A stretch of 64,000 bases of DNA from Membranipora membranacea. Taxonomy: Eukaryota; Bryozoa; Gymnolaemata; Cheilostomatida; Membraniporidae. This document shows, piece by piece, positions 15,244 to 61,914 of this stretch. Position 1 is the stretch's first letter. Each line of letters begins with the position of its first letter. Where the stretch lies: assembly GCA_914767715.1 (NCBI GenBank), contig OU612072.1, positions 22,382,001 through 22,446,000 of the forward strand, written 5' to 3'. Below the pieces are notes generated by a model, which saw only the letters and a program-made list of their open reading frames with translations, was not told the origin of the DNA and searched no databases. The translations under genes were made by a program, and so were the position numbers.

Positions 15244-15566
15244 CTTAAGGTGATGGTGATTGGTTGTTTTAGCAGTGCTGGAGGAGGCGGTACTTACCTT
15301 ACGATGATGGTGATTGGTTGGTTTAGCAGCGCTGGAGGAGGCGGTATTTGCCTGACGATGATGGTGATTGGTTGGTTCAGCGCGGGAGGAGGCGGTACTT
15401 ACCTTACAATGATGGTGATTGGTTGGTTCAGCGCGGGAGGAGGCGGTACTTACCTTACGATGATGGTGATTGGTTGGTTTAGCAGCGCTGGAGGAGGTGG
15501 TAGTATTAGATGAGATACTACCGACAGCACTGTCACTGGATGTGCTACTACCTTCACTTTCTCTGA
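15244..15566 (-). CDS. RAPGEF1: RAPGEF1-like repeat-unit linker exon (right copy)
   Basis: 323 bp with five units of 51 or 54 bp instead of six; the start reads the same Ser-rich RESEGSSTSSDSAVGS. Internal boundaries carry three AAG|GTAAGT sites and one CAG|GCAAAT; the terminal donor is AAG|GTCAGT. Unit number differs from the left copy by whole units, so the frame is kept. Confidence 0.65.
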
Positions 15567-35586: not shown

Positions 35587-36665
35587 TCATCGTTGGTTGG
35601 CAGTCGGCAGCTTCTTCACATAAAATGTCAGCAGGCTGACCCGTTCATTGTTGATCAGTTCAACTCCCTCTGTGAAAGAAAAGCACAACATACTGATAAT
35701 GTAAGATAAGATAATTCTCTTCTAAAGAATAACTTCCATTGACATTTCATTAAACTTGATATTCTGACCCCCCTGTGTATCGAGAGTTGCAGAAAAATGT
35801 AAAGATGGTTCAGTAAGCAAAGCATGTTTACCCATATTCCAGAGTCCTGGCTTTGGGTTCCATGATAGCTGCAATCAAGTATGTATGGAAAATTATAGTT
35901 CTCTCACATATATTTTGCATATCTATGGAAAAATAGAGCTCATAGCTATTGCAAGAGTCGAATAAAAAGTTGTATTCATACCGCTATAAACTAGTTCAGT
36001 CACAGCAGGATTTGGAGATACGGGATGAGTGAGTTCATGAGGATGTTCTGTTCTCATATTAACTCCTGGTGACAGATAGAGCTTCCTCTCATTAGTGAAT
36101 GTACTGATGGTGACAGGAAGCTGTCCTACGCCTTCCTTAGGAGCCTCCTCTCTCACTAGGGTTTGAATCTACAACCAAACAGGATGTTTTACTAGGTCAG
36201 GTAATACTTTGAGGCGGTGGACAATACCCTGAACCTAGTAGCAGTCTCTGATGTATTGAAAGCTGGTGGTATCTTAAACACTTGATTGGAGGTAATCTTA
36301 TCTGATGAAAGAAGATTTTAACCAAGACAAAAATATCACAATATCACAAACTATTCCCCAAAAAACAAATTTGTATTGACAGTGCACAAATGTAAAAATA
36401 AATTTGGATTTTTTCACATAATTATCTCTCGAACTGGTATATACTGTGCCTGAGCTTAATCAGACAGCAAGTGTAAAACCAGTATCAGGTATGTGCAATA
36501 AGGAAAACAGTCTTACCCTTTGTGGAAAAGAAACATTAAAAACCAACAAACATACCATTTTACTGAGTTCTTCAGCGTGTTTTGATCCTGCTTGCTTGTA
36601 GAAGGTTGCGACCAAAGCACGAATGAACAAAGATCCTTTGTTCCTGAATCTCCATGCAACATAAT
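35587..36665 (-). CDS. Caspase small subunit, three last exons
   Basis: Exons 36556-36665, 35982-36168 and 35587-35669. They read YVAWRFRNKGSLFIRALV, then GQLPVTISTFTNERKLYL, then VSLLTFYVKKLPTANQR and stop. The WR-KGS-FI and STL-KKLYF-like motifs are the usual small-subunit marks. A C-terminal tail of about 50 residues goes past the usual caspase end. Confidence 0.85.
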
Positions 36666-39600
36666 CTATCAACATTTATCATGGGATTTACAATTGAACA
36701 TAGTATATGGGTTCACTGTGGAAAACGTTGGTTGTGTTGTGCAACTTTGACATTTCATATGTTTGCCTCTAGCCTTTGAAATATGGTGAAGTTGATAGGT
36801 TTTCCCTAAGTGCTGGTCCATTTGCTATGATATGAGGGTCTGTATATCGATATTCGTTAAACTTGGAAATCTCATACCGTGTGGGATAGAAACTATGGAA
36901 GAGTAACAAGGAATCAAATCAAGGGATTGCATTGAGTTGCGGGAGAATCAATTCTTATCGGGTAATTTTCTATGGTTAATCCATTGCTAACAACTTTTTA
37001 ATTGGCTTAAAAATGAAGCAGTCACATTTATAGTTACCTGGAAAGCTTGGGTGGAATACGATAAGATCATCCATACACTGATGGCTATCATCTGAAGGTC
37101 TTTCTGTGTCTTGTTGTTGCTGCTGTGGTTGTTGTTGTTGTGACGGTTGTTGTTGCTGTTGATGTTGTGGTAGCTGTTGATACTGTCGTTGCCGTGGCTC
37201 TTGTGGTCGTTGTGGGGAGGGTACTGGTGGCACTCTTTTGACTGAACTTGGTACTTGTACATCTTCTTCTGGACCGGAAGCTGTTTTGAGAAAACAAAAG
37301 TAATAAAATCCAGCCCCAAAATCTGATTTGTCTTTGTTACCTCTACCAAATAGACTGCACAAATAATGTTATTACAGAACAGAATGAACATGAAATAATA
37401 TTTACCAGCTGTCTTTGTTTCCACTTCATCTTGTACACATCTCTGCTGTGATTCAGGAGATGCAGTGGATCCTTCATCAGTTCCTGTCTGGATTGTCGAC
37501 GAATCGTCATTCTTCATTTTTCTCACTTAAAAAACAAATTCTTTTTTACTGTCTGGCTTGTGAAATTAGGATTATGCTTCCATAAAATGATTAATAATTC
37601 ATGCACTGCGAGATTTCAGATATTCAACATTGCAATTACAGAAATCATAGCATACTTTCATTGCAAATCTCAATAATCTATTATGGATATCAATCAACAG
37701 ATCTTCACACAAAATAGATGCCAGTGTTAAAAGTGCCACACCAAAGCTTACACACCTCCTGAGCAGGCCTGAAGGATCACCATCTTGGGTTTTCCTCTCA
37801 TTGCAGGAAAGTTTTGTGATGAGAGCAGTCTGTATATGTCCACTAGTTTGAGGGTTCCATCTTTGGTTGAGATTGTACCATAACCACCATGACTCATCAA
37901 CACCAGTGCAAACATTCCCAGGTTAGCATGTACAGATGTATCAGTGTCTCTATCCACATACTGTGTCTCTTTGTGTATCGCCTCAACCACCTCCTATATC
38001 AAGAACAAATGGAGAAGAAATATTGCATTACCATCAGTAGATGTCCCGTTTTGGTTGATTCGGTTGATTTGGTTGACTTTTTGCATAGTCTAGATTCAAA
38101 TACTTTATTATGATAATTCATGAAATAGTCAGTAGATATTTTTAAAGTTATTTTTTTCTTTTACTGTATGCAAAAAAGTTGATCGTCAAGCATTGAAGGG
38201 AGTAACCTTCAAAGGGAGGGGTCCAGTTTGGGGATGAGATGTAGTCACCTTTTAATTTTGATTAAGTTGTGAGGTCATATATTTTGATATCGCTCTTTCA
38301 AAGAAAGATTGCCGGCTGCAATGTTTTAAGACACCAAATTGTGGAGATAAGCCTTTGGTACAGGGTACATAAATTTACATCTCATTAGTTGTTGGATGAT
38401 ATGATTACCTTGGCACTCCATTCTCTATTACCGCTCAGCTCGCTTACAATGTATCCAAACTGTTTGAACATTTCAACCATGTTTTTGTAGTCATACTGAG
38501 ATCCTTCTCTGTCCTGTTTCTTTATGGGGAATCTGATATTGATTATGAGAGCTCTTCCTCGAGAAGCAGTCATAGTATAAACCTTAAAACGAACAGAAAA
38601 TTTCAATTGTTTTTATTAATTCAATGCCCACTGATGTGGAACCATTCGCCTTAGACCAACTTGATCAAGATGCTGAACGCTTAAGAATGCCAGTCAGCAT
38701 TTTCAATCCTTACACAGACAAAAGCTTATGTCTCTGAACTCATTATGGTAGGTTATAGCATCAATCTTCAGTAGATAAGAAGACATATTATTGGGACTAA
38801 TTAGTTTGTCTTAACATCACAATTACCTTTTCTTTGTGAGGTGTAGAATACAAGGTGGTCTGGAAGTTTGGCAGCATGCTGATGTGTGCTTGAGTTTCAT
38901 CATTCATGATTCTTCTGATTTCATCAGTTGATGGGTCCAACTTCTTCACATATTGAACTAGTGCTTCATTAGCAGAGTCAGAGAGTTTGAGGCCTTTTAT
39001 GGAGTGAGAAAAAATATTCGTATTAATGACGATCAAGTTATGGGTTTCATACTGAATATGAGCAGTGAGAATTTCATCAAACTCTACGACTGACATATAT
39101 TCACAACTTGTTGGATAGTAGCACAAGGGGATAATCAAAGTCTTAAAGAAGATCAACCAGAAACATCATTTCACACAATTCCACCAATCTGTGATAGTTC
39201 AATCAAAAACTATTGGACTCGCAAACTATAATGTGACTCAGCTAGCAGTAAATACAATGAACACTGTGGAGAAAATAATTCAACAATTTAATCTTACATG
39301 GTGTCTTGAGTACAGCTGGAACATCATGTTCTGATCCACATGATACAGTGTCTGCTGTTGGTTGTTGCTTGCTTGATGGATCGCATATCGCCTGGAAGTC
39401 TAACAATGCAGGGTTAGACTTTTCACGAATGAGGCAATGGGGACAAGGAATGTCATAATCTATCTTTGTGGCAGGCCATGTTGATTTTGCTTTCCCTGAT
39501 AACACTTTGAGGAGGGTGGAGAACTTTGCCCAACATTCAGATATTGTGGTTGCACATCCGTCAACTCTGATGATTGCCCTTTGCGCATCTCTCTCATGTA

Positions 39601-42600
39601 TGAAATGAACATCAAACTGCTCCCTCTTCTCATTGCCAGATCTGGTTGGTGCTTGCAACTTTGCAGCTGCTCCATTCCCATAGGGGAAAATTTGATAGCT
39701 TTCATCCATATTTTCGAGAAATGAAACTGTTAGCTGATGAAATGCATAGTCAGGTGCTTTCAATCCGATAAAGTTCATTGATGCATATAGCTGAATCTCA
39801 GCTCTATGATGAAAAAATGAATGTTCAGGCATGAAGTATGGCATCAGGTAGCATTCATCCTGATTGTTGATAACGGTTGGGCCAAACAGAAGTTTGAATT
39901 CTACCAACAGCGCAATAGCGATATCAGAAGGTATCTTGGAGGATAGGGTAGAAATGCGGGAATGAAGGTCAGCTTTGCTCATCATACCATTTCTTTGATA
40001 GCTGCTGGGTCCTGAAGTAACATTTCCATCTGCTGATTGCTGTATGACGATATTAGGAATCATGGTGTGACCATACAATGATCCTATTAGCTCTGTTAAA
40101 ACTGGTATTTTGTGGAACACAGTATCTGCCAGACCAGGGTGTGGGGAATCCGGATACCACAATATCTGACCAGATCTCTTCATGAAGTCAAAGACAGTCC
40201 GAGGGTGCTTCAGAGAGGTAGAAATCAGGTCATATTTGAGATAGCTGTCATTATTCTCGGTGAAGGGAGAAAGCCAAATACTGGGAATGGAACATTTTGA
40301 ACCCTCTACTCTGTTGTAGAGGGTTCTCTCTAGCCTCTGGAATACTGTGGAATAGACTTTGTCATCTTGAGAAAAGCCTACTGGGAACACATTTTCTTGG
40401 CTGAACACAGATGAAAAATGATCCCCGTCAGAACGAACAGCAAGCCTTTCTATTTGACCGTTTCCTTTTAGAAGCTCATCAGTCAAATCTTGTAGAGTGC
40501 GAGTAAAGTCACCAGCTATTTTTTCATACAGGTCTAATTTAGTTCTATATTCATCATGGTGGGTGAGAACTACGAGGGGCTCTTGGATCTTTTGAACTGC
40601 TGTCCCAAGGTGCGCGATCCAATTAAAAGCGACTTCCCTTGTGGCTTCACGTGGTCCTCGCTTTTTGGCTATTTCTTCGAATTCTGACATATTCACCACG
40701 ACTATTGGTATGCAGTCTTCACGCATTGTCAGGTGGTAGCCGTGATGGTAAATTTCGTCACCTCCAAAGTCAATAACCTCGACATCACTTTTCTCTGAAT
40801 CAGGGCCTTGAATCTGTACCTTCTCAAAACCAAAAACCTTTGTTTTTTCAACGCTTGCATCCTGTGGACTTCGAGCTTTGAACTTATCCTTCATGACACT
40901 TAGAAGAGAAGACTTCCCTGCCTCTTTTCTACCAATGAGGACAATAGGTGATAGAGAGATGACTTCTTTTCCACTTTCCATGTCTGTGTAGTAGTGTTTT
41001 ATGTCGCTCCAACCTCCTGCACACACAGCATAGGGTGGCTCTATTAGCTCGTAGCATATGCCACATCTGAATGTGGAGAGATTCAGCGACCTCATACTGG
41101 AATGTAATCGGATGAGATCAGAGTTTCCATCGAGGTCCAGATGAGTTAGAGAGACTAGTTCACCGATCCATTCAGGTAACTGTTTGATGTTATTTCTCTC
41201 CAACGTCAGCCGTTTCAGTCTCCTCATGGTTCTTATACTGAATAAGATGAGATATTTATGTGTATATTATACTAATCAGATAATTATGATTATTTATCTT
41301 ATTTTGATTTCATTTTGGTCAAATTTGTTGCTCGCCAAATACCGAGATCAGTTCAGTTATTTGTTCAACAGTATATGTGGCATCCAATGAATTTATCTGC
41401 AGCTGGGAGCCAATATATTTGAGCATTCCACAGCATAAATGTGGATCAATGTACCACTAGGGTAAGTCGTCGATGTTAAAATAAACTAATAATCTGAAGG
41501 GGATTATTGTTAGGCAATTATGAGTGAAACCGGATTGTATTTTCATCTTTTTCAGAGTTGTCTTAAATGAGAGTGATGTTGCAAACGCGTTCCCATCAGT
41601 CACATTCATAAAAATGTCAAAATAAAATTAAATTTGAATCGCCTGTAGGCTCACTTGTTGTAGTTAATTGGTGCATCATCTGTGATTTTGACACAAATAA
41701 AATACCACAATAATATATACAATATATTTCTCATCATAACCAATGCCTTTATTTTCTGAAGCTATGTCTATCGGCCGCAATGAAGGTGTTGTTGGGGAGA
41801 TTGGGACAAAAATAATGGCACCTCAAAGTTTATTTCACCTGATGAGAAATCAAATCGGCCAAAACGAGAAGACAATATCATCAAATAGCCGGAGAAAATT
41901 TACCAACCTACTTCACCCCGATCACTGGGAACTACCTTTACCAGAAAAAAATAGGCACAATAGTGTTCAATATTTGAAAACTATAACTGAACCCAACGGG
42001 CAAATCACCTTGAATTATCCTCCAAAAAAATATGGCGCCCGTATAAATCACAATCACTGTGGAAGTGAACAATTCGATTGAGAACTGTATGGCCGCATGG
42101 AAGGTGAATATAGAAATCAGAGGGCTCTCTTGAGGCAGCAGATAACAGGACTTATATATCCCGGAGAAATCGGGGATAGACCAGCTGACTGCTTTATGTT
42201 TTTCATAATCATTATAAAAATGTCATCATTACTTTTCCTCTTCTGAGATCTAGGGAAGATTACAATTCTGTGAGTCTGCTCTCTGTTACCAACAGCATCC
42301 ACATTCCACACAAATATGTTACACTGTTTACTAATACACTGTCAGCATTGTACACAATATCATGTGACCTGGATTTTCCATTACAATGGTAGGGGTTCTC
42401 CCATTTCATATGAAAGTTTTCTCCTAATGTAATATTTTTTGCCCCCTAAAAACGGCCCCAGCTCTCTATTGTATACACTGAGAGGTGTAAATTTTGCGGT
42501 TTTGAACATTCCTAAACTTTCTCATGAACTGTAAACATTCAAATTGAAGCGAAAGAGATATCATTAAATTGAAAGCTAGCTATTAGTTGCTTTCGTGGGA

Positions 42601-45600
42601 CTACCTGTTGTTACGTTGCATTTATGGTTGCTACGGGTCTACTATGAAATAATTTATTCCTATTCCGATTAATGGGATGACTGCAATCGTGGCCACACAT
42701 CATGCACAGAGTATTGATAGGGGGAGGATGGCAATAGGTATTGTAAAATTTCTGCAGAGCTTTGACCATTAAATCTGTTTTAAAATAAAAACAAGATTCA
42801 ACAAATATGGTTCGTATTAAATTGATGGTGATAGCAGGTTTACTTCAATAGGTTCACTAATTAATGTACAGGCTTTATTAGCACATGTCATTTGTTGAGA
42901 GGAGTAGCAGTGTTAATTTATGATTTTTTTATATCTGAGCAGGATATAATCCACAAAACTGCAGTATGTGTATATAAAAACCCATATCCAGTGCCTCATA
43001 TCACTTTTTCAAAAAGTGTTTTGGAAAAAATTAAAAGAAACGGCTGAAACACAGTCCTGTGTCCTACCACATATGCGTAGTAAAACCAGATGAGGGTATG
43101 CTTACTTTACCCATATATCTCAAATATAAATCAATGGAAATCTGTAAGCTTCAGCGGGACAGCGTGGCCGAGCGCCTTGCGTGCTCGATCACAGTGAGTG
43201 GTCCAGGTTCAAATCCCGGTTGAGACCAAAGAAGCAAGAAGGTGGAAGGGTATAACCGACTTTTTTATATATTACTACTTACACCCACTACATCATTAAA
43301 TTTAAATACCTTGAATATTTCACACTGAACTTTGCTAGCTTCAGCGGCCAAGCGTGGCTGAGCGGTTGATCTCAGCACCAGAGGCCGGAGTTCAAATTCT
43401 GGTGAGGCCAGATTAAAAGCCGTGAGGAAGAAGCATGGTATGACCCTTTTATTTATATATAATATATATATATATATACCACAATTATAACATGTTTGTT
43501 GCGCTATATTCTATGGCTGAATTCACTGAAAATAATTGTAGAGGGAGTTCTGCCATAGGTCTCAGTGAAGAAGATGTTGCTTGTCTCTCAATAACAAATT
43601 AAGTTTGATGCGATCTACGTTCCAGATAAATGGAAGGAAGCGCAAATCCGACCAATCCCAGGGTTGCTTGCCCCTCCAAACACAAAGACTATCAGCCAGG
43701 GTCAATATTGTTTCACCTTGGATTCTCTCTACCTGGGATTCTCTCCTGGGTAGGAGATCGGGCGAGCTATCCGGCTATCAAGTGAAGGGAAAAGGGAAAA
43801 CTTCTCAAGACAGCAAACTGCATAAAACTCAATCTAGGTACAAATTTAATCATAGCCATGGACTGGGGTAAGTTTGGGAGCATCCAATGAAAAAGTTATA
43901 AAGAATGATAAATTATCTACCCGAGGAAATCAACTTAAGTAATCAGTGACTTTGCTCAATGAGTGAAACAAATTAGCACCAAGTAACAACACCTGATAAT
44001 AAGATGTTGGTCTTGTACCATTGCCTGAACAATTGTTCAATACCGGTGAGTGGATGGTATAATTCAGGAGTTCGGACCAGATTTGCAATTAATTTTCTGT
44101 TAAACTAGTTGAACACACCATAAATTGTGGAATTTGAATGAAAAAAGGTAAACTCAAACACCATCCAAGGTAATATCACAACCCCACAAGCCTGTTGCTC
44201 ATTACATAGACTCAACGATCAATGTTGCATTTCTGATTATTACACAATGTAAAGTTATATTTGTGAGCATCTTGAGAACCTACAAGTGTGTATAACTTTT
44301 TGAGCTGGTGACCCTGCACTTGTCATTTATAGCAGTATGGTTCAAAAGATTGAAAAGTGATGACATTATCTCTTATGAAAATTTTACATAACTTTACATG
44401 ATTTTTTTACTTTAAACTTTTGAAAGGTGTGTACGCTATTTTATTGGCGTACCTGTTTTATTAGCCTACGTTTTATTAGCATACCTGTTTTATATTCGTA
44501 ATTTTCACAGAATTGTAGAAACATAAATAAAGAAAGCACATAACTAAAACCTGTATGACCATATTCACTGGGCAAAGTACAGGTTCGGATAGTTGTTGCT
44601 CAGGATAATCTAAACTGATGATGATGACCAATGTGTCTTCCTAAAATTCATAAATGTGTATGGCCGTTCACTACCTCCCAACAACCTTGCCACTTGATAG
44701 GTGTTATGCTGGAGTCAAAAAAGTTGCCGATAACAAACTATGGCAGACCTTATCAGTATTGAGGACTGCCAAATTTACATTCAGCAGATTCAGCTCTCAA
44801 ATATGCAATCACTATCCTGCAGCAGTTTGATGAAATCAATCCCATTCGCAGCCAGTGAAATAGTAGCCATACCTTTTGTGATTTTCATAAAGGCTGTCAA
44901 GTACTATTGCTAAAATTCACTTTTATTATTGGTTGAGTGATTATAATTTGTTTAATGGTGTTGGCATTTGCAGCGTAACAGTTGATAATCCCTGAAAACT
45001 TATAGTAGTTGTAGTGGGACCTAATCCATGTTTATGCACAATAATTATCATAGGCAATGGATCTAAGTGATAATTAATTCCTATAATTACAGCTACAACA
45101 ATTAACTATTGGCAAGAATCCAGTCAGACAGCCCAAATTTGAGTCCTTTGTGTCAAAATAAAAATATCTCAATATAAAACATTGTTGATAGCTAAAGACA
45201 ATACAGCCAGCTTTTACTGCGTGAATAGCATAAATTTTCCCACGAAATAGACTTCATTTAACTCTGGCAAAATTAATGTCAACACACATTGAGTTTTGAA
45301 TTTCGTTCGTACACACAATGGAGTTAGGGCTGATATCTTCCACAAGATACCATGCCGGTTACATGTTGAGTTATCATCTAATTTTTTCAACTCCCACCAC
45401 AAATTGCAATATTCTTGCTTAGCAGACATCTTGTATACAACATTTACATTGATACTAAGTTTTTGACTCCTTGCGGTCAAAATATCATCGATCCATATTG
45501 ATATAGGTCGGAATTGTATTGACAAACTGTATGACAATGGACAATGTCTCTACAGTTCTTGAGTTCAATTCCATCAATGACTTAGGTCAACGGCGATCAT

Positions 45601-48600
45601 TTTGGATTCCAGGAGGAAGGCAAACAGCACAACCATAATTATATGTTTAATGCAGCTTTGTTTGAATGAATTAAAATCAGGAATCCATCATCCCGAGTTA
45701 AACCCCAGATCACATTTTAAAGGATAATGATTTCAATGCTTGCTGCTCATGTGTTAATCTTACACCTGTCAAACTGTGCAAACTTTGATGATTATACTAT
45801 GTGATTAAGTCAACCAAGGGATTAAATTTTGATCTCTTGGTGTGAAAGGTTTGATACTACTGTTCCATCCATTCTGTTGTCACCGAAGTCTAAATATATT
45901 TTGACAAATCCGTGATTGTGTTTGCACTGCGAAGATACTCATGTTAGTATCGCCTGAGCCTATTTTCTGACAACATTTACAACTTTTTGATGGGGTCGTA
46001 ATTTATAATTTGTAATTTTACTTTGCTGGACGATACAATAGTATAGCTTCTGAACGGAGGCAGTTTTCATTGATTTAATATCAGCAATTCTACTGCTAGC
46101 TGCCCCACTCATTGGGGATAAATTTACCTTTATGATGGTAAACACTCTGATATCTAGTAGTTCGACTCCACATTATGGCGATGTTTTTCGGCATTTTCAA
46201 ATTCCAAGAATATTTTGAAGGTAATATGATTTTAAAAATTTAAACACATTCCATCGATCTGTGGAAGTGATGTAACCATTTTCTTGACAGTGGGCTAAAC
46301 ATTGAGTTTGCCAAATTGAGATTGATTCCTAATAAAGAGATTGATGTGAGATGGTTCTTTAAAACAATTTCCATTGAGAACTGAAAGGCATCCAGATTGC
46401 ATTACATTGTGGTAGCCAGTGTTTACCTTTCGGATTGATTCTGACACTTCTCACTTGTGGGTGAGCACAATTCCAAAAATTTTAAAATCAAGACACATAC
46501 ATACATACATGCGATATAGTTGTGTGATATATGTGTTTTTTCAATAGCATAATCCAACAAACAAACTGAACATACCCTGAAGGTAACTCGACCAGATCAC
46601 AATCGCTCATTTCCAGTTCCTCTAGTCTTCTAAGTCCAGATAGTGTATCACTCAACTGATCATCTGTACTCAGATAGTTGTAACTGACATACAGCTCCCT
46701 CAGTGATACCATCTTTGAAATGCTGCAAGGTACCAACAAAACATTGAAATTTGTTCAAAACAGAGAGTGGTGAAATCTGAATTCGACATTGATAATATGA
46801 TGTTGAAGGTTGCAGTCGATTGCATGCCTCTGAAAAGTTCAATGCGCCACTTTTACATTATGGTTGTCAAGCTCTGAAGTGATATCATCAAGCAGTTTGA
46901 TTGAGGCGTCGACTGTCCCAATGTGCGTCTTGTAAGCAAACAGTGATGGCTCTATTACCTCAGTCAATTTGGATCTCATTTATTTTATTATAACCTCCTC
47001 AGTAAGCTTGTCAAGGTGAAACAATATTGACACTGACCAATGGTCTTTGTGTTTGGGAGGGCTACCTTGGAGCTGCATGGGCGCTCGGAGTGACAGGCTG
47101 TACTCACACAGCTATCTACACATGTTGTCTGTTTGCCAATTTAACTATTGAGTACAGTATTTCAACCTATACTAAATTGTAGCAACTAGCCCATAGATCG
47201 CTGTCGTTTATGACTCATTGAATAATATGCTATAGCAGAGAGGAGTTTAGAAACTCAAAATCTCAGGACGTTGCCTCTACCATCTGTTCAAATACTGGTG
47301 TCTGATATGCATTTGGAGCCTCATAATCTGGTAGAAATCCCAACTCATGTATAAGTTGGATGTTGAGAAGTCAACATCATCTGAAGACTTCCAGACATGG
47401 ATCTCAGTGGAGGGTGAAGAAGATGTTTGCTTGCCTCTCAATGACCTATTGAATTTGATGCAATCTACATTGGAAATTCCAGTTAAATGCAAGAGAGCCC
47501 AAATCCGACCAATCCATAGGGTTGCTTGCCCCACAAAACACAAAGACTATCAGCTAGTGTCAATATTGTTTCACCTTGGATTCTCTCTACCTGGGATTCT
47601 CTCCTGGGTAGGAGATCGGGCGAGCTAGCCGTCTATCAAGTGAAGGGAAATGGGAAAACTTCTCAAGACGGGCAAACTGCATAAAACTCAATCTAGGTAC
47701 AAATTTAATCATAGTCACGGACTGGGGTCAGCTTGGGAGCATCCAATGAAAAAATTATAAAACAATATGAATTATTCACCAGAGGAAATCAACTATAGTA
47801 ATCAGTGACTATGCTAAATGAGTGAAACAAATTAATTGTAGATAGCGATTTACTGCAGACAATTGAAAACAGAACAGCAATTTTCAGGCGACCATCAGGT
47901 ATTAAGAGGATGGCAGCAACCTCAATGTCATTTAGTACAACTATAATCAAATATCAACAATTTGATAACTCTCTTACATTGACCTTAGTTTCTTTTTATT
48001 AGGATGACACTGAGACTCATAAAAAATCTTTTCATTGCTTTCAACCTCATTCGCAACATGGAAGTTGTCAAACTACGTTTAGAGATGGGGCAACTCCCAT
48101 ATTAATTGACATTTCGAAGTCATCATGTGTAATTTAGTGAAAACTGTGAATACATCATCCCGAGTTTAACTCCAGATCACATTTTAAAGGATAATGACTT
48201 CAATGCTTGCTGCTCAGGTGTTAATCTTACACCTGTCAAACTTTGCAAACTTTGCAAACTTTGATGATTATACTATGTGATCAAGTCAACCCAGGGATTA
48301 AATTTTGATCTCTCTGCGTGAAAGGTTTGATACTACTGTTCCATCCATTCTGTCGTCATCGAAGTCTATATTTTGACAAATCCTTGATTTTGTTTGCACT
48401 GCGAAGATACTCATGTTAGTATCGCCTGAGCCTGATTTTCTGACAACACTTACAACTATTTGATGGGCTCGTAATTTATAATTTGTAATTTTACTTTGCT
48501 GGACGATACTATAGTATGGCTTTTGAACGGAGGCAATTTACATTGATTTAATATCAGCAATTCTACCGCCAGCCAGTTATGATATTGCAAAACTGAATGG

Positions 48601-49229
48601 CAGCTGCCCTACTCATTGGGGATAAATTTACCTTTATGATGGTAAACACTCTGATATCTAATATATCCACTCCACATTATGTCGCCGTTTTTCGGCATTT
48701 TCAAATTCTATGAATGTTTTAAAGGTAATATAGTTTTAAAAATTTCAACACATTCCATCGATCTCTGGAAGTGATGTAACCATTTTCTTGACAGTGGGCT
48801 AAACATTGAGTTTTCCAAATAGAGATTGATTCCTAATAAAATGTAACAGATATTGATGTGAGATGGTTCTTGAAAACAATTTCCATTGAGAACTGAAAGG
48901 CATTCAGATTGCATTACATTGTGGTAGCTAGTGTTTACCTTTCGGATTGATTCTGACACTTCTCATTTGTGGGTGAGCACAATTCCAAAAATTTGAAAAT
49001 CAAAACACATACATACATACATGCGATATAGTTTTCGATGTGTTATTTCAATAGCATAATCCAAAAAACAAACTGAACATACCCTGAAGGTAACTCGACC
49101 AGATCACAATTATCCATATCCAGTTTCTCTAGTCTTGTAAGTCCTGATAGCGTATCACTCAACTGATCATCTGTACTCAGATTGTTGGCTCTGACTGTCA
49201 GCTCCTTCAGTGATACCATCTTTGAAATG
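35587..49229 (-). CDS. LRR-Roc-COR GTPase fused to a caspase domain
   Basis: Exons in transcript order, all phase-compatible: 49083-49229, 46576-46722 (LRRs), 39298-41237 (last LRRs, Roc, COR), 38827-38993, 38409-38582, 37756-37993 (caspase large subunit), 37406-37525, 37038-37280 (linker, polyQ), 36556-36665, 35982-36168, 35587-35669 (small subunit, stop TGA 35589-35587). Every junction has AG and GT. Roc shows a P-loop GRKEAGKSS, DFGGDE and THHDE; COR shows FDFMKRSGQILWYPDS. The caspase shows RGRALIINI, catalytic-His SHGGYG, catalytic-Cys QACSG, YVAWRFRNKGSLFI and a final VTISTFTNERKLYL. ROCO proteins couple ligand-sensing LRRs to a GTPase switch; here the output would be a cysteine protease, which suggests an intracellular receptor for cell death or defence. 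This is inference from domains. Further 5' exons lie right (54815-54962) or outside the window; the start codon is not seen. Confidence 0.85.
37038..37280 (-). CDS. Caspase linker with Pro/Gln-rich insert and start of small subunit
   Basis: 243 bp, phase-compatible. PPVPSPQRPQEPRQRQ leads to runs of four to five Gln broken by Pro, His or Ser, then DTERPSDDSHQ and MDDLIVFHPSFPG, the first strand of the small subunit. Codons are CAA and CAG mixed. The other two strands' frames here are shadows. Confidence 0.85.
37406..37525 (-). CDS. Caspase inter-subunit linker, first part
   Basis: 120 bp, acceptor CTTAAG, reading VRKMKNDDSSTIQTGTDEG and ending ETKTAG. Several Asp residues could be cleavage sites between subunits. 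Confidence 0.75.
37756..37993 (-). CDS. Caspase large subunit, catalytic exon
   Basis: 238 bp. MFALVLMSHGGYGTIS holds the catalytic His, and GKPKMVILQACSGG holds the catalytic Cys in a QACSG pentapeptide (usual QACRG or QACQG). Both catalytic residues are present, so proteolytic activity is plausible. Confidence 0.9.
38409..38582 (-). CDS. Caspase large subunit, first exon
   Basis: 58 codons, phase 0 at both ends. It reads YTMTASRGRALIINIRF, then EGSQYDYKNMVEMFKQFGY, following the caspase start (RG-ALIIN, D-x-NM--LF--LGY). Confidence 0.85.
38827..38993 (-). CDS. Helical linker exon before the caspase domain
   Basis: 167 bp, phase-compatible on both sides, reading LKLSDSANEALVQYVKKLD and TDEIRRIMNDE. 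It lies where a prodomain would sit. No death-fold family is recognised with confidence. Confidence 0.7.
39298..41237 (-). CDS. Exon with last LRRs, Roc GTPase and COR domain
   Basis: A single 1940-bp exon, acceptor ATTCAG, donor GTAAGA. Counting from the Met at 41227: LRRs at about 1-50 (LKRLTLERNNIKQLPEWIG), Roc from about 95 to 310 with P-loop at 99-106 (GRKEAGKS), G3 at 153-158 (DFGGDE) and G4 at 222-226 (THHDE), then COR from about 318, with IWLSPF, a region like FLHEVGEILYF at about 344-360 and VFHKIPVLTELIGSL. A Cys/His-containing loop follows the LRRs. The acceptor and phase show this Met is internal, not the start. Confidence 0.9.
41238..43150. other. Intron of the LRR-Roc-COR-caspase gene
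   Basis: No exon in phase. A plus-strand frame of 112 codons at 41743-42081 has no recognisable domain and lies antisense in the intron; its status is unknown. Confidence 0.4.
43150..43240 (+). mobile_element. tRNA-derived SINE-like unit 1
   Basis: Has an A box (GTGGCCGAGCG) and a B box (GGTTCAAATCCCGG) spaced as in Leu/Ser-type tRNA, followed by an unrelated tail (AAGAAGGTGGAAGGG). The cloverleaf does not close cleanly, so a SINE head fits better than a working tRNA. Confidence 0.5.
43336..43445 (+). mobile_element. tRNA-derived SINE-like unit 2
   Basis: A box GTGGCTGAGCG, B box AGTTCAAATTCTGG, and a tail with GAGGAAGAAGCATGG similar to unit 1. The two lie about 180 bp apart in the same orientation. 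Confidence 0.5.
43490..43990. repeat. Distal part of the LRR-region duplication, extra copy
   Basis: Matches the end of the blocks at about 47400-47830 and 49890-50340 (TCAATAACAAATTAAG, TCCTGGGTAGGAGATCGG and further). It carries no LRR exon. Confidence 0.75.
44430..47850. repeat. LRR-region segmental duplication, copy A
   Basis: 44440-46500 matches 61915-64000, and 45690-47850 matches 48140-50345. It starts with a few units of the CCTGTTTTATTAGCCTA minisatellite, contains LRR exon 46576-46722 and ends in the sequence also found at 43490. The frames inside (for example plus 47347-47628 and minus 45214-45537) differ freely between copies and are not taken as genes. Confidence 0.85.
46576..46722 (-). 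CDS. LRR cassette exon (copy A)
   Basis: 147 bp (49 codons), acceptor TTGCAG, donor GTATGT, entering one base before a codon and leaving two bases, so copies can be chained without loss of frame. It reads ISKMVSLRELYVSYNYL then LRRLEELEMSDCDLVELPS. It joins the Roc exon (GG plus T) in phase. Confidence 0.85.
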
Positions 49230-50345: not shown

Positions 50346-51109
50346 ACACCAAAACAGGATGGCTAAGCCAACCAATTACCAAATCATTGACTTTTTTAAT
50401 CATGTACAAAATCTTAGCCCAGGATCTGTGAATACCGTTATTAAAGATTTTAGCACCGATCCTTTACAATTTTACACATCAATATGCGTAGTCTAATCAA
50501 CAAAATGCCTTTGTTTGAAGTACTGCTAGCTCAACTCAATGTTCATTTTTCATGTATTGTCATTTCAGAGATTTGGTTTTCACAAAATGAAATTTTAGAG
50601 AAGTTTTCACTATATGGCTATAAAAAGTTTTGTAGATCCGATTTCATGGCGCTGGCGGTGGAATTGCTATGTATGTATCAGAGGAGTTTGTGGCTAGTGT
50701 GACTGATGTTCGGTTGTCTGGAGCGGAGGCTATGGTGGTTCGTATGATTTGTTCTGGCTGCCCAGTCTGCTCTGTGCTGGCAGTCTATCGCACCCCTTCG
50801 GTGGGCCGGCGGATATCCTGGTGGACTGGGAGGCGCTGCTGCCTTCGCTCCCTATCAACTCTATAGTTGTTGGAGATCTAAATTTTGACGTAAATCTTTC
50901 AAATGAAACTGAAAACTTTACCCTAGACTATATGAGAAATATGAGCATGAATGGCTTCTTTAATATTATTGAGTCGCCAACACGGTGCGGCCGCACGAAA
51001 GACAGAATTTTAGATCATATTCTGGTCAACAACACCAGTAATGAAATTTTGTCATGTACAGTTAAGACTGACATGATAGCTGACCATTTTCCAGTTAGGC
51101 CTGGTACCC

Positions 51110-51375
51110 ATCAACTGCATAACTGTCCCAGTAACTCATCTGCGATCATGCACGGCCACTTGTGCATTGCTGTCTGTGATTGGTGGGTACAAAATACACA
51201 GACATCGTGCGTTTACAAATACCTTCGCACGAAAATAGAATTGATTCTACTTTCGTGCGATATGTTGTGCGATATGTTGTGCTGCATTTTGTGGTATCCA
51301 CAAATTCTTTAATGATTGCCAGTGCAAAATCTTAGAAATTCCTGAGATTAAAAAAGCACATTGGTGGGTACAAGG
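51110..51375. mobile_element. Small insert inside the non-LTR element
   Basis: After the endonuclease DHFPV the coding sequence breaks off into a segment with GTGGGTACA repeats and a palindromic core around TAGAATTGATTCTA (51235-51251). Coding-like sequence resumes after about 51470. It looks like a nested foldback insert. Confidence 0.4.
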
Positions 51376-53399
51376 CTTTATTAGCTCCATTGCTTTTCCA
51401 AACACATGGAAGCCAAACCAAGCTAACCAAATTTTAATTACTAAGCTTGATCCAAACACACTTTACAAAAAAGTTTATGACCCTGAAGTATGACAGGGAG
51501 TGCTCAAATAGCAGTAATCCAAATGACGCCTTTGAAATTTTTGAAAATACTCTACAGAAAGTCGTAGCTGAGTCATTCATAACTAAACCTAAAAAGCTAA
51601 GCAAAAAATTCACTTTTAAAAAGCCTTGGATGACGCACAAAATCGTCAAATTGATTCAACAGCGAGTAAACTTGCCCAAAAATTTAGGGATGAGCCTTTC
51701 AACAGTAAACTTCTTCAAAAATATTCTAAGATAAAAAATCTGACATGTAATACCATCAAAGATAGAATTTTTACAAAACTGAATTTGAAAATGTAAAATC
51801 GAATCAAAATGAGAAATGGGCTTTTAAACAGAAAAGCAGACAAGTCTTCATCACCAAGTTGTATTGAAACAAATGGACAAAGGTACACATCTGAAATTGA
51901 AATTGCTGAATGTTTTAACAAATTTTTTACGAGTGTAGGTCCTGGCTTGGCAGCTAAATGACCTGAATGTGGAGCTGACCCGTTATCATACCTAATACGA
52001 CAGAATTAACAATTTTGACTTCTTAGAAATTACAAACGACATTACAGAGACTGTCATAAATAATTCCTCTGCAAAAATAGCAGTTGGGTACGATGGGATT
52101 TCCATGAAAACCATTAAAGAAAATAAAAATGCTATCATCCCAATCTTGACCCACATGATCAATCTTATTGTTCCATCATCAGAATTTCCAGATAGCCAGA
52201 AAATTGCCAGAGAACGACCACTGCATAAAAAAGGTGATAAATTTGACTGTATCAACTATCGGCCGATATTGATATCAACTGCAATATCCAAAGCTGCAGA
52301 AAAAGTTTTAGCTATCCAACTTCGATTCTAATTGGAAAATTCTAATATTTTAATTGACAACCAGTTTGGATTCCGTGAAAAACGGAACACAACTTCTGCT
52401 TTATCTAGACTAATGGAACACCTGTACGACAGTTTCAATAACAGTAAAATTACACAAGGAATATTTTTAGACTTCAGCAAGGCTTTTGATACCATCAACC
52501 ATGATATGTTAATCAAAAAATTGCCTTTTTATAATTCTACAAATGATGCATGTGACTTGTTGAAATTTTATTTAGAAAACAGAAAATAATTTGTCAAAAT
52601 CAACGATCATTCCAGTACAATGAAAAAGGTCGATATAGGAGTTCCTCAGGGATGTGTATTAGGTCCAATTTTATATTTAATATTAATCAATGTTTTGGTA
52701 ATATCTGCGCCAATGTTTAAATATATTCTCTTTGCCGACGACACAAAATATATTTTCCAATGATCCTGAAATTTTAAAATCAAATGTTCAAAAAATTGAA
52801 CAATGATGCTTGAGTAATATATTGATTTTAAACTATACAAAAACAATTCAGGTAATTTTTAAATTCCAAAATAAGCAAATTTTAGACCCCGAACAGTACC
52901 AAATTAAACTTGGTAATCAGGCTTTAGAGACAAATTTCTCGGCATTCACCTGGATGAGAGCATTATTTTTAAAACCCATAATTTAGAAGTTTGTCGGAAA
53001 TTGAACTTCGTCCTATTTTTAATGCGTAGTGTACGACCATATTTCAATATTCCTACGATGATCAATTTGTGTTGCACATTCTTTTTTCCACATTTAATCT
53101 ATGGTATTGAGTTTCATGGTCATGCCGCAAATTGTAATCTTAATCACATCTATTTACTTCAAAAGTCAGATCTCCGTGTCATACTCAAAATCCGCCCACG
53201 TGGTCATGTGACCTCTTTCTTCTCCGAGTATCAAATTATGCCCATTGAAACACCGCTATTTGTTACATTTTAATAATACTAACCTTCATGGGGAGTTAGA
53301 AATTCAAGCCCCTGCCATTACAGCCACTAGGTCGAAGGAAAAATTAGCCCCAAAGAGAGCCAACATCTGTAGAAGGGAGAGGTCACTGTTAACCACAGG

Positions 53400-54814: not shown

Positions 54815-54962
54815 CTGTCAGGTATCTTAGTCAGATGACACCATCTCAGGTTCAGATTCTCCAGATTAGTGAGTGCTGACAATGTCTGACTCAGCTGATC
54901 ATCTCTACTTAAATTGTTACTGTATAACGCCAGCTCCTTCAACAATGTCATCTTAGCAATGC
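54815..54962 (-). pseudogene. LRR cassette exon with a one-base insertion
   Basis: Acceptor TTGCAG, donor GTAATG. It reads IAKMTLLKELALYSNNLS, then shifts frame, then LTNLENLNLRWCHLTKIPD. Length is 148 bp against 147 in the other two; the extra G lies near 54900, where the others read GATGATCAG and this one GATGGATCAG. Without it the exon would join 49083-49229 in phase. Confidence 0.7.
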
Positions 54963-55247: not shown

Positions 55248-58200
55248 ACCAGTTTTATTAGCCTACCTGTTGTATTAGCCTACCTGTTTTATTAACCTAC
55301 CTGTTTTATTAGCCTACCTGTTTTATTAGCCTATCTGTATTATTAGCCTACCTGTTTTATTAGCCTACCTGTTTTATTAGCCTACCTGTTTTATTAGCCT
55401 ACCTGTTTTATTACCCTACCTGTTTTATTAGCCTACCTGTTTTATTAACCTATCTGTTTTATTACCCTACCTGTTTTATTAGCCTACCTGTTGTATTAGC
55501 CTACCTGTTGTATTAGCCTACCTGTTTTATTAGCCTACCTGTTTTATTAACCTACCAGTTTTATTAACCTATCTGTTTTATTACCCTATCTGTTTTATTA
55601 GCCTACCTGTTTTATTAGCCTACCTGTTTTATTAGCCTACCTGTTGTATTAGCCTATCTGTTTTATTAACCTACCTGTTGTATTAGCCTATCTGTTTTAT
55701 TAACCTACCTGTTTTATTAGCCTACCTGTTTTATTAGCCTATCTGTTTTATTAGCCTACCTGTTTTATTAGCCTACCTGTTTTATTAACCTACCAGTTTT
55801 ATTAACCTATCTGTTTTATTAACCTATCTGTTTTATTAGCCTACCTGTTTTATTAGCCTACCTGTTTTATTAACCTACCTGTTTTATTAACCTATCTGTT
55901 TTATTAGCCTACATGTTTTATTAGCCTACCTGTTTTATTACCCTATCTGTTTTATTAACCTATCTGTTTTATTAACCTACCTGTTTTATTAACCTACCTG
56001 TTTTATTACCCTACCTGTTTTATTAGCCTACCTGTTTTATTACCCTACCTGTTTTATTAGCCTACCTGTTTTATTAACCTACCAGTTTTATTAACCTATC
56101 TGTTTTATTAACCTATCTGTTTTATTAGCCTACCTGTTTTACTAGCCTACCTGTTTTATTAGCCTACCTGTTTTATTAGCCTATCTGTTTTATTAACCTA
56201 CCTGTTTTATTAGCCTACCTGTTTTATTAACCTACCAGTTTTATTAACCTATCTGTTGTATTAGCCTATCTGTTTTATTAACCTACCTGTTGTATTAGCC
56301 TATCTGTTTTATTGACCTACCTGTTTTATTAGCCTATCTGTTTTATTAGCCTACCTGTTTTATTACCCTACCTGTTTTATTAACCTATCTGTTTTATTAA
56401 CCTATCTGTTTTATTAGCCTACCTGTTTTATTAGCCTACCTGTTTTATTAGCCTACCTGTTTTATTAACCTACCTGTTTTATTAGCCTACCTGTTTTATT
56501 AACCTACCAGTTTTATTAGCCTACCTGTTTTATTAACCTATCTGTTTTATTAACCTACCTGTTTTATTAGCCTACCTGTTTTATTAACCTACCAGTTTTA
56601 TTAACCTATCTGTTTTATTAACCTACCTGTTTTATTAGCCTACCTGTTTTATTAACCTACCTGTTTTATTAGCCTACCTGTTTTATTAACCTACCAGTTT
56701 TATTAGCCTACCTGTTTTATTAGCCTACCTGTTTTATTAACCTACCTGTTTTATTAGCCTACCTGTTTTATTAACCTACCAGTTTTATTAACCTATCTGT
56801 TTTATTAACCTATCTGTTTTATTAGCCTACCTGTTTTATTAGCCTACCTGTTTTATTAGCCTACCTGTTTTATTAACCTACCAGTTTTATTAGCCTACCT
56901 GTTTTATTAGCCTACCTGTTTTATTAACCTACCTGTTTTATTAGCCTACCTGTTTTATTAACCTACCAGTTTTATTAACCTATCTGTTTTATTAACCTAT
57001 CTGTTTTATTAGCCTACCTGTTTTATTAGCCTACCTGTTTTATTAGCCTACCTGTTTTATTAACCTACCAGTTTTATTAACCTATCTGTTTTATTAACCT
57101 ATCTGTTTTATTAGCCTACCTGTTTTATTAGCCTACCTGTTTTATTAGCCTACCTGTTTTATTAGCCTACCTGTTTTATTAACCTACCAGTTTTATTAAC
57201 CTATCTGTTTTATTACCCTACCTGTTTTATTAACCTACCAGTTTTATTAACCTATCTGTTTTATTAGCCTACCTGTTGTATTAGCCTACCTGTTGTATTA
57301 GCCTACCTGTTTTATTAGCCTACCTGTTTTATTAACCTACCAGTTTTATTAACCTATCTGTTTTATTAGCTACCTGTTTTATTAGCCTACCTGTTTTATT
57401 AGCCTACCTGTTGTATTAGCCTACCTGTTGTATTAGCCTATCTGTTTTATTACCCTACCTGTTTTATTAGCCCACCTGTTTTATTAACCTACCAGTTTTA
57501 TTAACCTATCTGTTTTATTAGCCTACCTGTTTTATTAGCCTACCTGTTGTATTAGCCTATCTGTTTTATTAGCCTACCTGTTTTATTAGCCTACCTGTTT
57601 TATTACCCTACCTGTTTTATTAGCATATCTGTTTTATTAGCCTACCTGTTTTATTAGCATACCTGTTTTATTACCCTACCTGTTTTATTAGCCTACCTGT
57701 TTTATTAGCCTATCTGTTTTATTAGCCTACCTGTTTTATTAGCCTACCTGTTTTATTAGCCTACCTGTTTTATTACCCTACCTGTTTTATTAGCATATCT
57801 GTTTTATTAGCATATCTGTTTTATTACCCTACCTGTTTTATTAGCCTACCTGTTTTATTAGCCTATCTGTTTTATTAGCCTACCTGTTTTATTAGCCTAC
57901 CTGTTTTATTACCCTACCTGTTTTATTAGCATATCTGTTTTATTAGCATATCTGTTTTATTACCCTACCTGTTTTATTAGCCTACCTGTTTTATTAGCCT
58001 ACCTGTTTTATTAGCCTATCTGTTTTATTAGCCTACCTGTTTTATTAGCCTACCTGTTTTATTACCCTACCTGTTTTATTAGCATATCTGTTTTATTAGC
58101 ATATCTGTTTTATTACCCTACCTGTTTTATTAGCCTACCTGTTTTATTAGCCTATCTGTTTTATTAGCCTATCTGTTTTATTAGCCTACCTGTTTTATTA

Positions 58201-61200
58201 GCCTATCTGTTTTATTAGCCTACCTGTTTTATTAGCCTACCTGTTTTATTACCCTACCTGTTTTATTAGCATATCTGTTTTATTAGCATATCTGTTTTAT
58301 TACCCTACCTGTTTTATTAGCCTACCTGTTTTATTAGCCTACCTGTTTTATTAGCCTATCTGTTGTATTAGCCTACCTGTTTTATTAGCCTACCTGTTTT
58401 ATTAGCCTATCTGTTTTATTAGCCTATCTGTTTTATTAGCCTACCTGTTTTATTAGCCTACCTGTTTTATTACCCTACCTGTTTTATTAGCATATCTGTT
58501 TTAATAGCATATCTGTTTTATTACCCTACCTGTTTTATTACCCTACCTGTTTTATTAGCCTACCTGTTGTATTAGCCTACCTGTTGTATTAGCCTACCTG
58601 TTTTATTAGCCTACCTGTTTTATTAACCTACCAGTTTTATTAGCCTACCTGTTTTATTAGCCTACCTGTTTTATTACCCTACCTGTTTTATTAGCCTACC
58701 TGTTGTATTACCCTACCTGTTTTATTAGCCTACCTGTTTTATTACCCTACCTGTTTTATTAGCCTACCTGTTGTATTACCCTACCTGTTTTATTACCCTA
58801 TCTGTTTTATTACCCTACCTGTTTTATTAGCCTACCCGTTTTATTACCCTACCTGTTTTATTACCCTATCTGTTTTATTACCCTATCTGTTTTATTACCC
58901 TATCTGTTTTATTACCCTACCTGTTTTATTAGCCTACCAGTTTTATTACCCTACCTGTTTTATTAGCCTACCTGTTTTATTACCCTACCTGTTTTATTAG
59001 CCTACCTGTTGTATTACCCTACCTGTTTTATTACCCTATCTGTTTTATTACCCTACCTGTTTTATTAGCCTACCCGTTTTATTACCCTACCTGTTTTATT
59101 ACCCTATCTGTTTTATTACCCTATCTGTTTTATTACCCTACCCGTTTTATTACCCTACCTGTTTTATTACCCTATCTGTTTTATTACCCTATCTGTTTTA
59201 TTACCCTATCTGTTTTATTACCCTACCTGTTTTATTACCCTACCTGTTTTATTAGCCTACCTGTTTTATTAACCTACCAGTTTTATTAACCTATCTGTTT
59301 TATTAGCTACCTGTTGTATTAGCCTACCTGTTTTATTACCCTACCTGTTTTATTAGCATATCTGTTTTATTAGCATATCTGTTTTATTACCCTACCTGTT
59401 TTATTAGCCTACCTGTTTTATTAGCCTACCTGTTTTATTAGCCTATCTGTTTTATTAGCCTACCTGTTTTATTAGCCTACCTGTTTTATTACCCTACCTG
59501 TTTTATTAGCATATCTGTTTTATTAGCATATCTGTTTTATTACCCTAACTGTTTTATTAGCCTACCTGTTTTATTAGCCTATCTGTTTTATTAGCCTATC
59601 TGTTTTATTAGCCTACCTGTTCTATTAGCCTACCTGTTTTATTACCCTACCTGTTTTATTAGCATATCTGTTTTAATAGCATATCTGTTTTATTACCCTA
59701 CCTGTTTTATTACCCTACCTGTTTTATTAGCCTACCTGTTGTATTAGCCTACCTGTTGTATTAGCCTACCTGTTTTATTAGCCTACCTGTTTTATTAACC
59801 TACCAGTTTTATTAGCCTACCTGTTTTATTAGCCTACCTGTTTTATTACCCTACCTGTTTTATTAGCCTACCTGTTGTATTACCCTACCTGTTTTATTAG
59901 CCTACCTGTTTTATTACCCTACCTGTTTTATTAGCCTACCTGTTGTATTACCCTACCTGTTTTATTACCCTATCTGTTTTATTACCCTACCTGTTTTATT
60001 AGCCTACCTGTTTTATTACCCTACCTGTTTTATTACCCTATCTGTTTTATTACCCTATCTGTTTTATTACCCTATCTGTTTTATTACCCTACCTGTTTTA
60101 TTAGCCTACCTGTTTTATTAGCCTACCTGTTTTATTAGCCTATCTGTTTTATTAGCCTACCTGTTTTATTAGCCTACCTGTTTTATTACCCTACCTGTTT
60201 TATTAGCATATCTGTTTTATTAGCATATCTGTTTTATTACCCTACCTGTTTTATTAGCCTACCTGTTTTATTAGCCTACCTGTTTTATTAGCCTATCTGT
60301 TTTATTAGCCTACCTGTTTTATTAGCCTACCTGTTTTATTACCCTACCTGTTTTATTAGCATATCTGTTTTAATAGCATATCTGTTTTATTACCCTACCT
60401 GTTTTATTACCCTACCTGTTTTATTAGCCTACCTGTTGTATTAGCCTACCTGTTGTATTAGCCTACCTGTTTTATTAGCCTACCTGTTTTATTACCCTAC
60501 CTGTTTTATTAGCCTACCTGTTGTATTACCCTACCTGTTTTATTAGCCTACCTGTTTTATTACCCTACCTGTTTTATTAGCCTACCTGTTGTATTACCCT
60601 ACCTGTTTTATTACCCTGTCTGTTTTATTACCCTACCTGTTTTATTAGCCTATCTGTTTTATTAGCCTATCTGTTTCATTAGCCTACCTGTTGTATTAGC
60701 CTACCTGTTTTATTAGCCTATCTGTTTTATTAGCCTACCTGTTTTATTACCCTACCTGTTTTATTAGCCTACCTGTTTTATTAGCCTATCTGTTTTATTA
60801 GCCTACCTATTTTATTACCCTACCTGTTTTATTAGCCTACCTGTTGTATTACCCTACCTGTTTTATTACCCTGTCTGTTTTATTACCCTGCCTGTTTTAT
60901 TAGCCTATCTGTTTTATTAGCCTATCTGTTTCATTAGCCTACCTGTTGTATTAGCCTACCTGTTTTATTAGCCTATCTGTTTTATTAGCCTACCTGTTTT
61001 ATTAGCCTATCTGTTTTATTAGCCTACCTGTTTTATTAGCCTACCTGTTTTATTAGCCTATCTGTTTTATTAGCCTACCTATTTTATTAGCCTATCTGTT
61101 TTATTAGCCTACCTGTTTTACTTGCCTACCTGTTTTATTAGCGTCCCTGTTGTATTAGCCTACCTGTTGTATTAGCCTACCTGTTTTATTACCCTATCTG

Positions 61201-61333
61201 TTTTATTAGCCTACCTGTTGTATTAGCGTCCCTGTTTTATTACCCTACCTGTTTTATTACCCTACCTGTTTTATTAGCCTACCTGTTTTATTACCCTACC
61301 TGTTTTTTTAGCCTATCTGTTTTATTACCCTAC
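55248..61333. repeat. 17-bp minisatellite, about 6.1 kb
   Basis: The unit is CCTGTTTTATTAGCCTA with common variants (AACCTATCTG, ACCCTACCTG, AGCATATCTG, AACCTACCAG, TTGTATT). At 17 bp per unit the tract has about 355 units. Variants recur in blocks: the group with two AGCATATCTG units recurs at about 57620-57810, 57920, 58080, 58260, 58490, 59350, 59510, 59660, 60200 and 60360, a higher-order pattern. On the minus strand each unit reads AATAAAACAGGTAGGCT. Copy number may be affected by assembly. Confidence 0.95.
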
Positions 61334-61914
61334 CTTAGCCCTGTTCACACGGCCACGGGCTTTGGTTTTTTGGTTTGGTTGGTGGCCATGTATTGTCCGG
61401 CATAGTGTCGGTAGTTTTCTCCTGCTGTTTTAGCTCTAAGCTTCTCCACTTTGAGCTTTTACTTTTAATCTGTTCCTTAGGCAAATAAATTAACTTTATC
61501 ATTTATCATATTGAAAATAAATATAAATAAGCTGATTGCACTAAATATTACATTAATAATGTGAAAACATGGCTAAGTTGAAAAAGTTTAAAACACCCAT
61601 GAGTAAGATCATGATCAAGGTCAAGGTCATGGTCTTACTCATGGGTCTTTTAAATTTTTTCACCTTAGCCATGTTTTCACATTATCACATTAATATGCAA
61701 TATGTAGTGGAATCAACTTATTTATATTTGTTTTGAATATGATAAATAAAAAAGTTAATTTATTTGCCTATGGAACAGTGAAAAAGTCAAAGTTCAAAGT
61801 GGAGAGGATTAGAGCTAAAACAGCAGCAGACAACTACCGATACTATGCCGAACGATACATGGCCATCAACCAAACCAAAAAACCAAAACCCGTGGCCGTG
61901 TGAACAGGGCTAAG
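61334..61914. mobile_element. Large foldback element inserted at the end of the minisatellite
   Basis: Two arms of about 280 bp are inverse complements; ends CTTAGCCCTGTTCACACGG and its inverse at 61914, centre near 61610. No coding sequence. Minisatellite units occur on both sides (CTACCTGTTTTATTGGC follows), so insertion came after the repeat began. A possible CTAC or TA target duplication flanks it. Confidence 0.85.

Follow-up and report, generated by a model that had tools for sequence, protein, structure and literature searches.

A candidate one-chain LRR-Roc-COR-caspase receptor and its expanded gene family in the bryozoan Membranipora membranacea

Introduction

Does a single gene of the bryozoan Membranipora membranacea join leucine-rich repeats (LRRs), a Roc GTPase, a COR domain and a caspase in one polypeptide, or do a ROCO gene and a caspase gene lie side by side, and what might a fused protein do? 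The question arises from a stretch of 64,000 nucleotides of contig OU612072.1 (positions 22,382,001 to 22,446,000, here called the window; the contig is C8 below), in which a first-pass annotation made from the letters alone had proposed such a fusion and read it as a sensor, switch and executioner in one protein.

The gene and its exons

Ten minus-strand exons running from 49229 to 35982, all with AG/GT borders, form one open frame that encodes LRR, Roc, COR, linker and caspase parts (Table 1). The first-pass annotation had drawn eleven exons with consistent phases over 35587..49229; splice sites, phases and frame bear out ten of these, while the tail exons after 35982 are uncertain and position 49229 is not the 5' end, with LRR exons continuing further upstream, first at 54961 and then outside the window. 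The three stops of the full translation all fall in the tail, 3' of the ten exons, and the caspase domain is complete without it. The spliced translation, which used a linker start at 39089 and was cut after the tenth exon, is 1189 residues long. Linker exon starts at 39089 and 38993 both leave the frame open, and 38993 is the likelier one because the aligned paralogues start there with the same split Cys codon; an acceptor at 39106 was ruled out by an in-frame stop. Within the exon 39298..41237 the sub-boundaries are estimates, with Roc at about 40945-40670 and COR at about 40360-39440. Reading upstream as far as C8:22476000 did not reveal the first coding exon; a search there by ATG openings and the Watersipora N-terminus gave only weak matches (best E 0.07). 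An Rfam search returned 0 matches at the gathering score.

Table 1. Coordinates of the gene's features in the window.
Feature	Position	Strand	Basis or remark
LRR exon type B, 147 nt, phase 2 in and out	54815..54961	-	tblastn, exon comparison
LRR exon type A	49083..49229	-	splice model, exon comparison
LRR exon type A, ~2.5 kb tandem copy of exon 49083..49229	46576..46722	-	splice model, exon comparison
Single 1940-nt exon: last LRRs, Roc GTPase, COR, CPHC motif	39298..41237	-	splice model, Pfam, fold
Chimera switch point	39381..39500	-	upstream L032-like (C8:21.88 Mb), downstream L031-like (C8:22.83 Mb)
Linker exon, 55 residues (alternative longer start 39089)	38827..38993	-	splice model, paralogue alignment
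Caspase p20 exon 1 (RGRALIIN, REGSQYD)	38409..38582	-	splice model, Pfam, paralogue p20 exons
Caspase p20 exon 2, catalytic His (SHGGYG) and Cys (QACSG)	37756..37993	-	splice model, Pfam, structure match
Intersubunit linker exon 1	37406..37525	-	splice model; 97% identical in L031
Intersubunit linker exon 2 (Gln-rich) and p10 start	37038..37280	-	splice model; 88% identical in L031
Caspase p10 exon 1 (YVAWR...GSLFIRAL)	36556..36665	-	splice model, Pfam, structure match
Caspase p10 exon 2, end of caspase domain	35982..36168	-	splice model, Pfam; tail past 35982 uncertain

The window also holds repeats. A 17-bp tandem array of about 358 copies with strong strand skew occupies 55248-61335, in the gene's intron between LRR exons, and another intron of the gene contains endonuclease- and reverse-transcriptase-like ORF pieces (50454-53273, plus strand), which we take to be a broken non-LTR retrotransposon. 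In addition, two similar copies of 54/105-bp tandem arrays, and a 395-bp unit present twice in tandem with 99% identity, are found at 4854-5173, 15236-15502 and 10653-11442.

The Roc-COR and caspase parts

A Pfam search of the 1189-residue model finds Peptidase_C14 (E 2.7e-31), LRR_8 (9e-15) and Roc (29.6 bits against a cut-off of 27, E 9e-7), and no NACHT/NB-ARC, kinase or death-fold family at E up to 1; the linker exon has no Pfam match and no death fold. The Roc motifs GRKEAGKSS, DFGGDE and THHDE that had been named in the first-pass annotation are present and align with those of 21 paralogues. Of the 22 Roc exons in this alignment, 21 have an intact P-loop, that of L012 being broken by Arg in place of Gly. 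All 22 retain DxGG and THxD, none of them has a stop, and each carries a CxxC motif late in COR. Likewise, none of the 145 Roc-COR matches of two genome searches has an internal stop. A strict motif pattern, which retained G3 in only 11/22 Roc exons and gave a false G4 in the LRRs, proved too strict by the alignment. The COR domain directly after Roc is recognised by predicted fold, its sequence score (COR-B, 0.07) lying below the Pfam cut-off: the 646-residue Roc-COR exon is modelled with a mean pLDDT of 78.9 and matches LRRK1 (1.3e-21), LRRK2 and the Chlorobium tepidum LRR-Roc-COR protein Roco (3dpu/6hlu), with modest TM-scores to the whole targets (0.47-0.56 on the query, rmsd 7-10).

The caspase had been described as complete, with catalytic His (SHGGYG) and Cys (QACSG), and this description stands: the match covers positions 1-229 of the 233 in the Peptidase_C14 profile, p20 then p10. 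Its best matches among solved structures are caspase-2, an entry named Caspase, caspases 1, 4 and 3, and CED-3. The Arg of REGSQYD and the Trp-Arg of AWRF, which presumably have a role in the P1-Asp pocket, align with chains 8vp4 and 3sir, and from motifs and alignment the enzyme is predicted to be a caspase of the type that cleaves after Asp. The catalytic His and Cys are kept in 19/19 p20 exons read, from loci picked out of the Pfam caspase match list and not at random; in L016 the Gln preceding ACSG is replaced by Glu, and in L011, L013 and L015 Ser takes the place of Ala. Over 12 pairs, p20 dN/dS is 0.08-0.17 in the six divergent ones, where dS is partly saturated, and 0.27-0.65 in the six close ones, and the window gene differs from L031 by a pN of 15/768 and a pS of 6/218 (exon 37280-37038 left out). 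Because of these last two results, recent constraint is not demonstrated. The genome's best Peptidase_C14 match, L001 (C4:18270899-18271708), has DSSTG in place of QACxG and is a candidate pseudo-caspase; no Roc-COR match was found in the 3.8 kb fetched there.

One gene or two

Searched against its own genome, the Roc-COR exon gave at least 75 matches at 68 or more places (68 of 243 first-look candidates scored) and a divergent paralogue gave at least 70 matches (70 of 258 candidates scored), which together mark at least 131 places. Caspase places were taken from 145 Pfam matches and 150 matches to the window's p20, merged to 186; all place counts vary with the merging rules and give a minimum for the family size. 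At 122 of the 131 listed Roc-COR places a caspase place lies within 5 kb on the 3' side, on the same strand in 122/122, at a median distance of 1327 (range 547-2961), and at none of the 131 does one lie within 5 kb on the 5' side. From the other direction, 17 of 18 loci fetched at caspase places have a long same-strand Roc-COR match upstream; at L028 the match spans 70 residues only. Among the matches listed, 64/186 caspase places are unpaired, which is not a count of lone caspases.

Nine listed Roc-COR places have no caspase in the lists. Caspase loss is one possible reason, but the three that were read (L033, L034 and L035) all have caspase ORFs: once two ORFs are joined in each, Pfam recognises a caspase in L035 (6.7e-22) and L034 (1.9e-11), and the ORF of L033 was identified by a tblastn match (2e-6) and by eye. 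L033 and L034, on C3, belong to a subfamily whose divergent caspase after Roc-COR was missed by the caspase searches.

The same fusion is found in two other bryozoans, as the first-pass annotation had suggested looking for in other invertebrate proteomes. A protein search with the Roc-COR and p20 parts (region 150-942, E up to 10) returned at least 13 proteins among 7988 scored candidates, two of which carry a name, come from bryozoans and have a caspase domain. In the 1337-residue protein of Watersipora subatra (P0079), Peptidase_C14 (8.5e-31) and the GTPase family MMR_HSR1 score over the cut-off, while the Roc, COR-A and LRR families fall below theirs and COR-A/COR-B below the curated bits. 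In the 907-residue protein of Bugula neritina (P0080), Roc is over the cut-off and Peptidase_C14 scores 2.6e-14, with COR-A (3.8e-7) and COR-B (1.5e-4) below the cut-off and a caspase part of low confidence in the predicted fold. The other 11 listed proteins are unnamed predictions on contigs of 2.7-6.3 kb; on contigs so short, the absence of a caspase from their precomputed domains means little. The caspase region by itself (760-975) gave no protein match at E 0.001 among 458 candidates. Watersipora also has an 849-residue protein with LRR and Roc and no caspase (P0004). Residues 1-8 of P0079 are MGCSLSRR, a start that to us resembles an N-myristoylation/palmitoylation signal, and membrane anchoring of the Watersipora fusion protein is possible. 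The Flustra foliacea genome paper describes many species-specific duplications, and its main text nowhere uses the strings caspase, leucine-rich, immun or apopto.

A ROCO gene and an adjacent caspase gene might instead have been duplicated jointly as a cassette, and clustered duplication by itself could hold both together; nevertheless, this is very improbable, given that the 122/131 places, on ten contigs and including paralogues of about 25-30% identity, keep the strand and a spacing of 0.5-3 kb, that splice phases agree across the ROCO and caspase parts, and that Watersipora and Bugula each have an annotated protein in which the parts are fused. Pairing that is downstream and on the same strand at 122/131 places and upstream at none makes a single gene far more probable than two, and chance is excluded by the Pfam E-values, the pairing (122/131 vs 0) and the fused proteins of the two other bryozoans. 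The LRR-Roc-COR-caspase family thus numbers more than 120 loci in this genome. Linked loci form tandem clusters on C1, C3, C5, C8, C9, C10 and C11, the largest of which comprises 12 linked loci, all on the minus strand (C9:1938993-2494565).

Variable LRR exons and a chimeric gene

At least nine 147-nt LRR exons, with phase 2 on both sides, lie 5' of the Roc exon; the window has three of them (46722, 49229 and 54961), and six more follow upstream to C8:22458756. In type A (five distinct sequences in six copies, one from paralogue L011), 11/12 exposed positions of LxxLxLxxNxL vary, compared with 2/36 others (Fisher 4e-8), and in type B (four sequences) 10/12 exposed positions vary, compared with 8/36 others (3e-4); the exposed positions, which we take to form the concave face, were assigned from LRR structures. 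A comparison of exons 49229 and 46722 shows differences at 17/147 sites, and one of their flanks at 11/200 and 10/195 (Fisher 0.02). Three exon pairs were compared in this way, and one of them, 49229 and C8:22447032, is identical, which points to recent exon copying inside the gene. Next to the latter exon (L010 near 1032), the 5' flank is 3.5% different from that of 49229 and the 3' flank differs at 77/186 aligned sites. Furthermore, over the first 80 codons of the Roc exon dN is higher than dS in the comparisons with both L011 (0.135, 0.060) and L012 (0.133, 0.083). The pattern of LRR variation suggests diversifying selection, from few sequences and with no formal test.

The gene also appears to be composite. 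Compared with L032, it shows 0-12 differences per 60 bases between 41300 and 39441, then 19-39 per interval of up to 60 bases; compared with L031, it shows 10-37 before the switch and 0-4 after it, down to 38841. The changeover falls near 39440, where the CPHC motif closes COR. Downstream of it the introns differ from those of L031 at 74/1967 sites (gaps left out), which suggests a recent exchange. If the assembly is correct at this point, the gene would be a chimera of an LRR-Roc-COR part from one lineage and a linker-caspase part from another, and the sensor-GTPase and caspase parts may have been joined through either crossover or gene conversion. A mis-assembly of two paralogues, which would concern the chimera and not the fusion, is improbable: close paralogues that share a chromosome can be joined wrongly, but there is a single clean switch within a coding exon with the frame kept, and the Membranipora membranacea assembly used PacBio data, according to the available text of PMC10290214.

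Proposed mechanism and role

Domains, fold, genome-wide linkage and cross-species fusions agree in supporting a sensor, a switch and a protease in one protein. The architecture of the first-pass reading is therefore retained, and the family of more than 120 loci, the upstream continuation and the chimerism, which were absent from it, are added. Judged from its sequence, the protein is probably a one-chain immune alarm able to start cell death. The reading that we prefer, with a probability of roughly 0.65, is a ligand-triggered receptor, and we infer the ligand binding, GTP-gated dimerisation, caspase activation and immune role that it involves. The long LRR array would bind a ligand through its variable concave surface, which would relieve autoinhibition of the Roc-COR GTPase; Roc-COR would then dimerise as in LRRK2 and bacterial Roco and bring two C-terminal caspase domains together; and proximity, together with self-cleavage of the intersubunit linker, would activate the caspases, leading to cell death or a protease cascade. 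A CARD/DED adaptor would be unneeded because the caspase sits on the same chain.

Caspases also have non-death roles, and the fusion could be real with the caspase serving regulated processing or developmental tissue turnover, of which polypide regression is an example, and not foreign recognition. We consider this unlikely, as the more than 120 clustered loci, the variability of the exposed LRR face and the chimerism fit a recognition repertoire better. Less probable again is a family made up of allorecognition receptors that tell colonies apart, with death at contact zones: the LRR family is large and recombining, and bryozoans are among the colonial animals named as having allo-incompatibility in the accessible part of PMC8195603, but immune defence accounts for the same features.

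Beyond the ligand-triggered receptor itself, we tentatively propose, at somewhat less than even odds, that cheilostomes have built from ROCO proteins an animal counterpart of the plant NLR repertoire, with more than 120 receptors, LRR diversification on the ligand side and reassortment of sensor and caspase at the COR/caspase border, for immunity and perhaps colony allorecognition. If the mechanism is true, an animal lineage has put sensing, a GTPase switch and a death protease in one polypeptide, and its expansion to more than 100 loci has parallels in plant NLRs and in the conflict systems of bacteria. With cleavage as a simple readout, the family would then allow a direct test of whether dimerisation of Roc-COR is enough by itself to gate an effector, which is a central question for LRRK2, and it would offer candidate immune and allorecognition receptors of bryozoans.

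Comparison with known systems

No report of an animal ROCO-caspase family was found among the matches listed in a search of literature titles and abstract openings, a scope outside which most subscription journals fall. NLRs, in inflammasomes and in plants, combine an LRR sensor and an NTPase switch with a death-type output and form expanded, clustered families, all of which the bryozoan family has in common with them. In the bryozoan gene, however, a Roc-COR GTPase replaces NACHT/NB-ARC and the caspase is on the receptor itself; by analogy, the protein may work like an NLR, yet it is not one, as NACHT/NB-ARC is absent. CARD/DED initiator caspases have a long prodomain with a death fold. The bryozoan protein is likewise a long-prodomain caspase, presumably activated by proximity, but its prodomain is a complete LRR-GTPase receptor and the 1189-residue model has no death fold.

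With the animal ROCO proteins LRRK1/LRRK2, DAPK1 and MFHAS1 the bryozoan protein has a common LRR-Roc-COR core, as the fold match to LRRK1 indicates, whereas it ends in a caspase instead of a kinase, a death domain or nothing; the C-terminal kinase that would make it an LRRK was not among the Pfam families at E up to 1. In other animals, ROCO proteins that carry immune signalling domains are known from the sea anemone, where the gene NG1 is described as LRR-GTPase-COR-TIR in the accessible text of PMC5094078, and from Trichoplax, where a figure legend of PMC4104024 names CARD and TIR among the domains. Theirs are TIR or CARD, as far as these excerpts go, and the bryozoan one is a protease.

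The combination itself has a precedent in bacteria. The accessible part of PMC8195603 describes conflict proteins with LRRs, an AP-GTPase (Roc), COR and a C-terminal caspase, the caspase being one of at least 24 listed effector domains, with several paralogues per genome. The likeness is one of architecture only, with LRR, GTPase, COR and C-terminal effector in the same order, whereas the bryozoan gene is intron-rich and has an animal-type p20/p10 caspase, more than 120 loci and a caspase in every copy read. The bryozoan and bacterial fusions likely arose independently.
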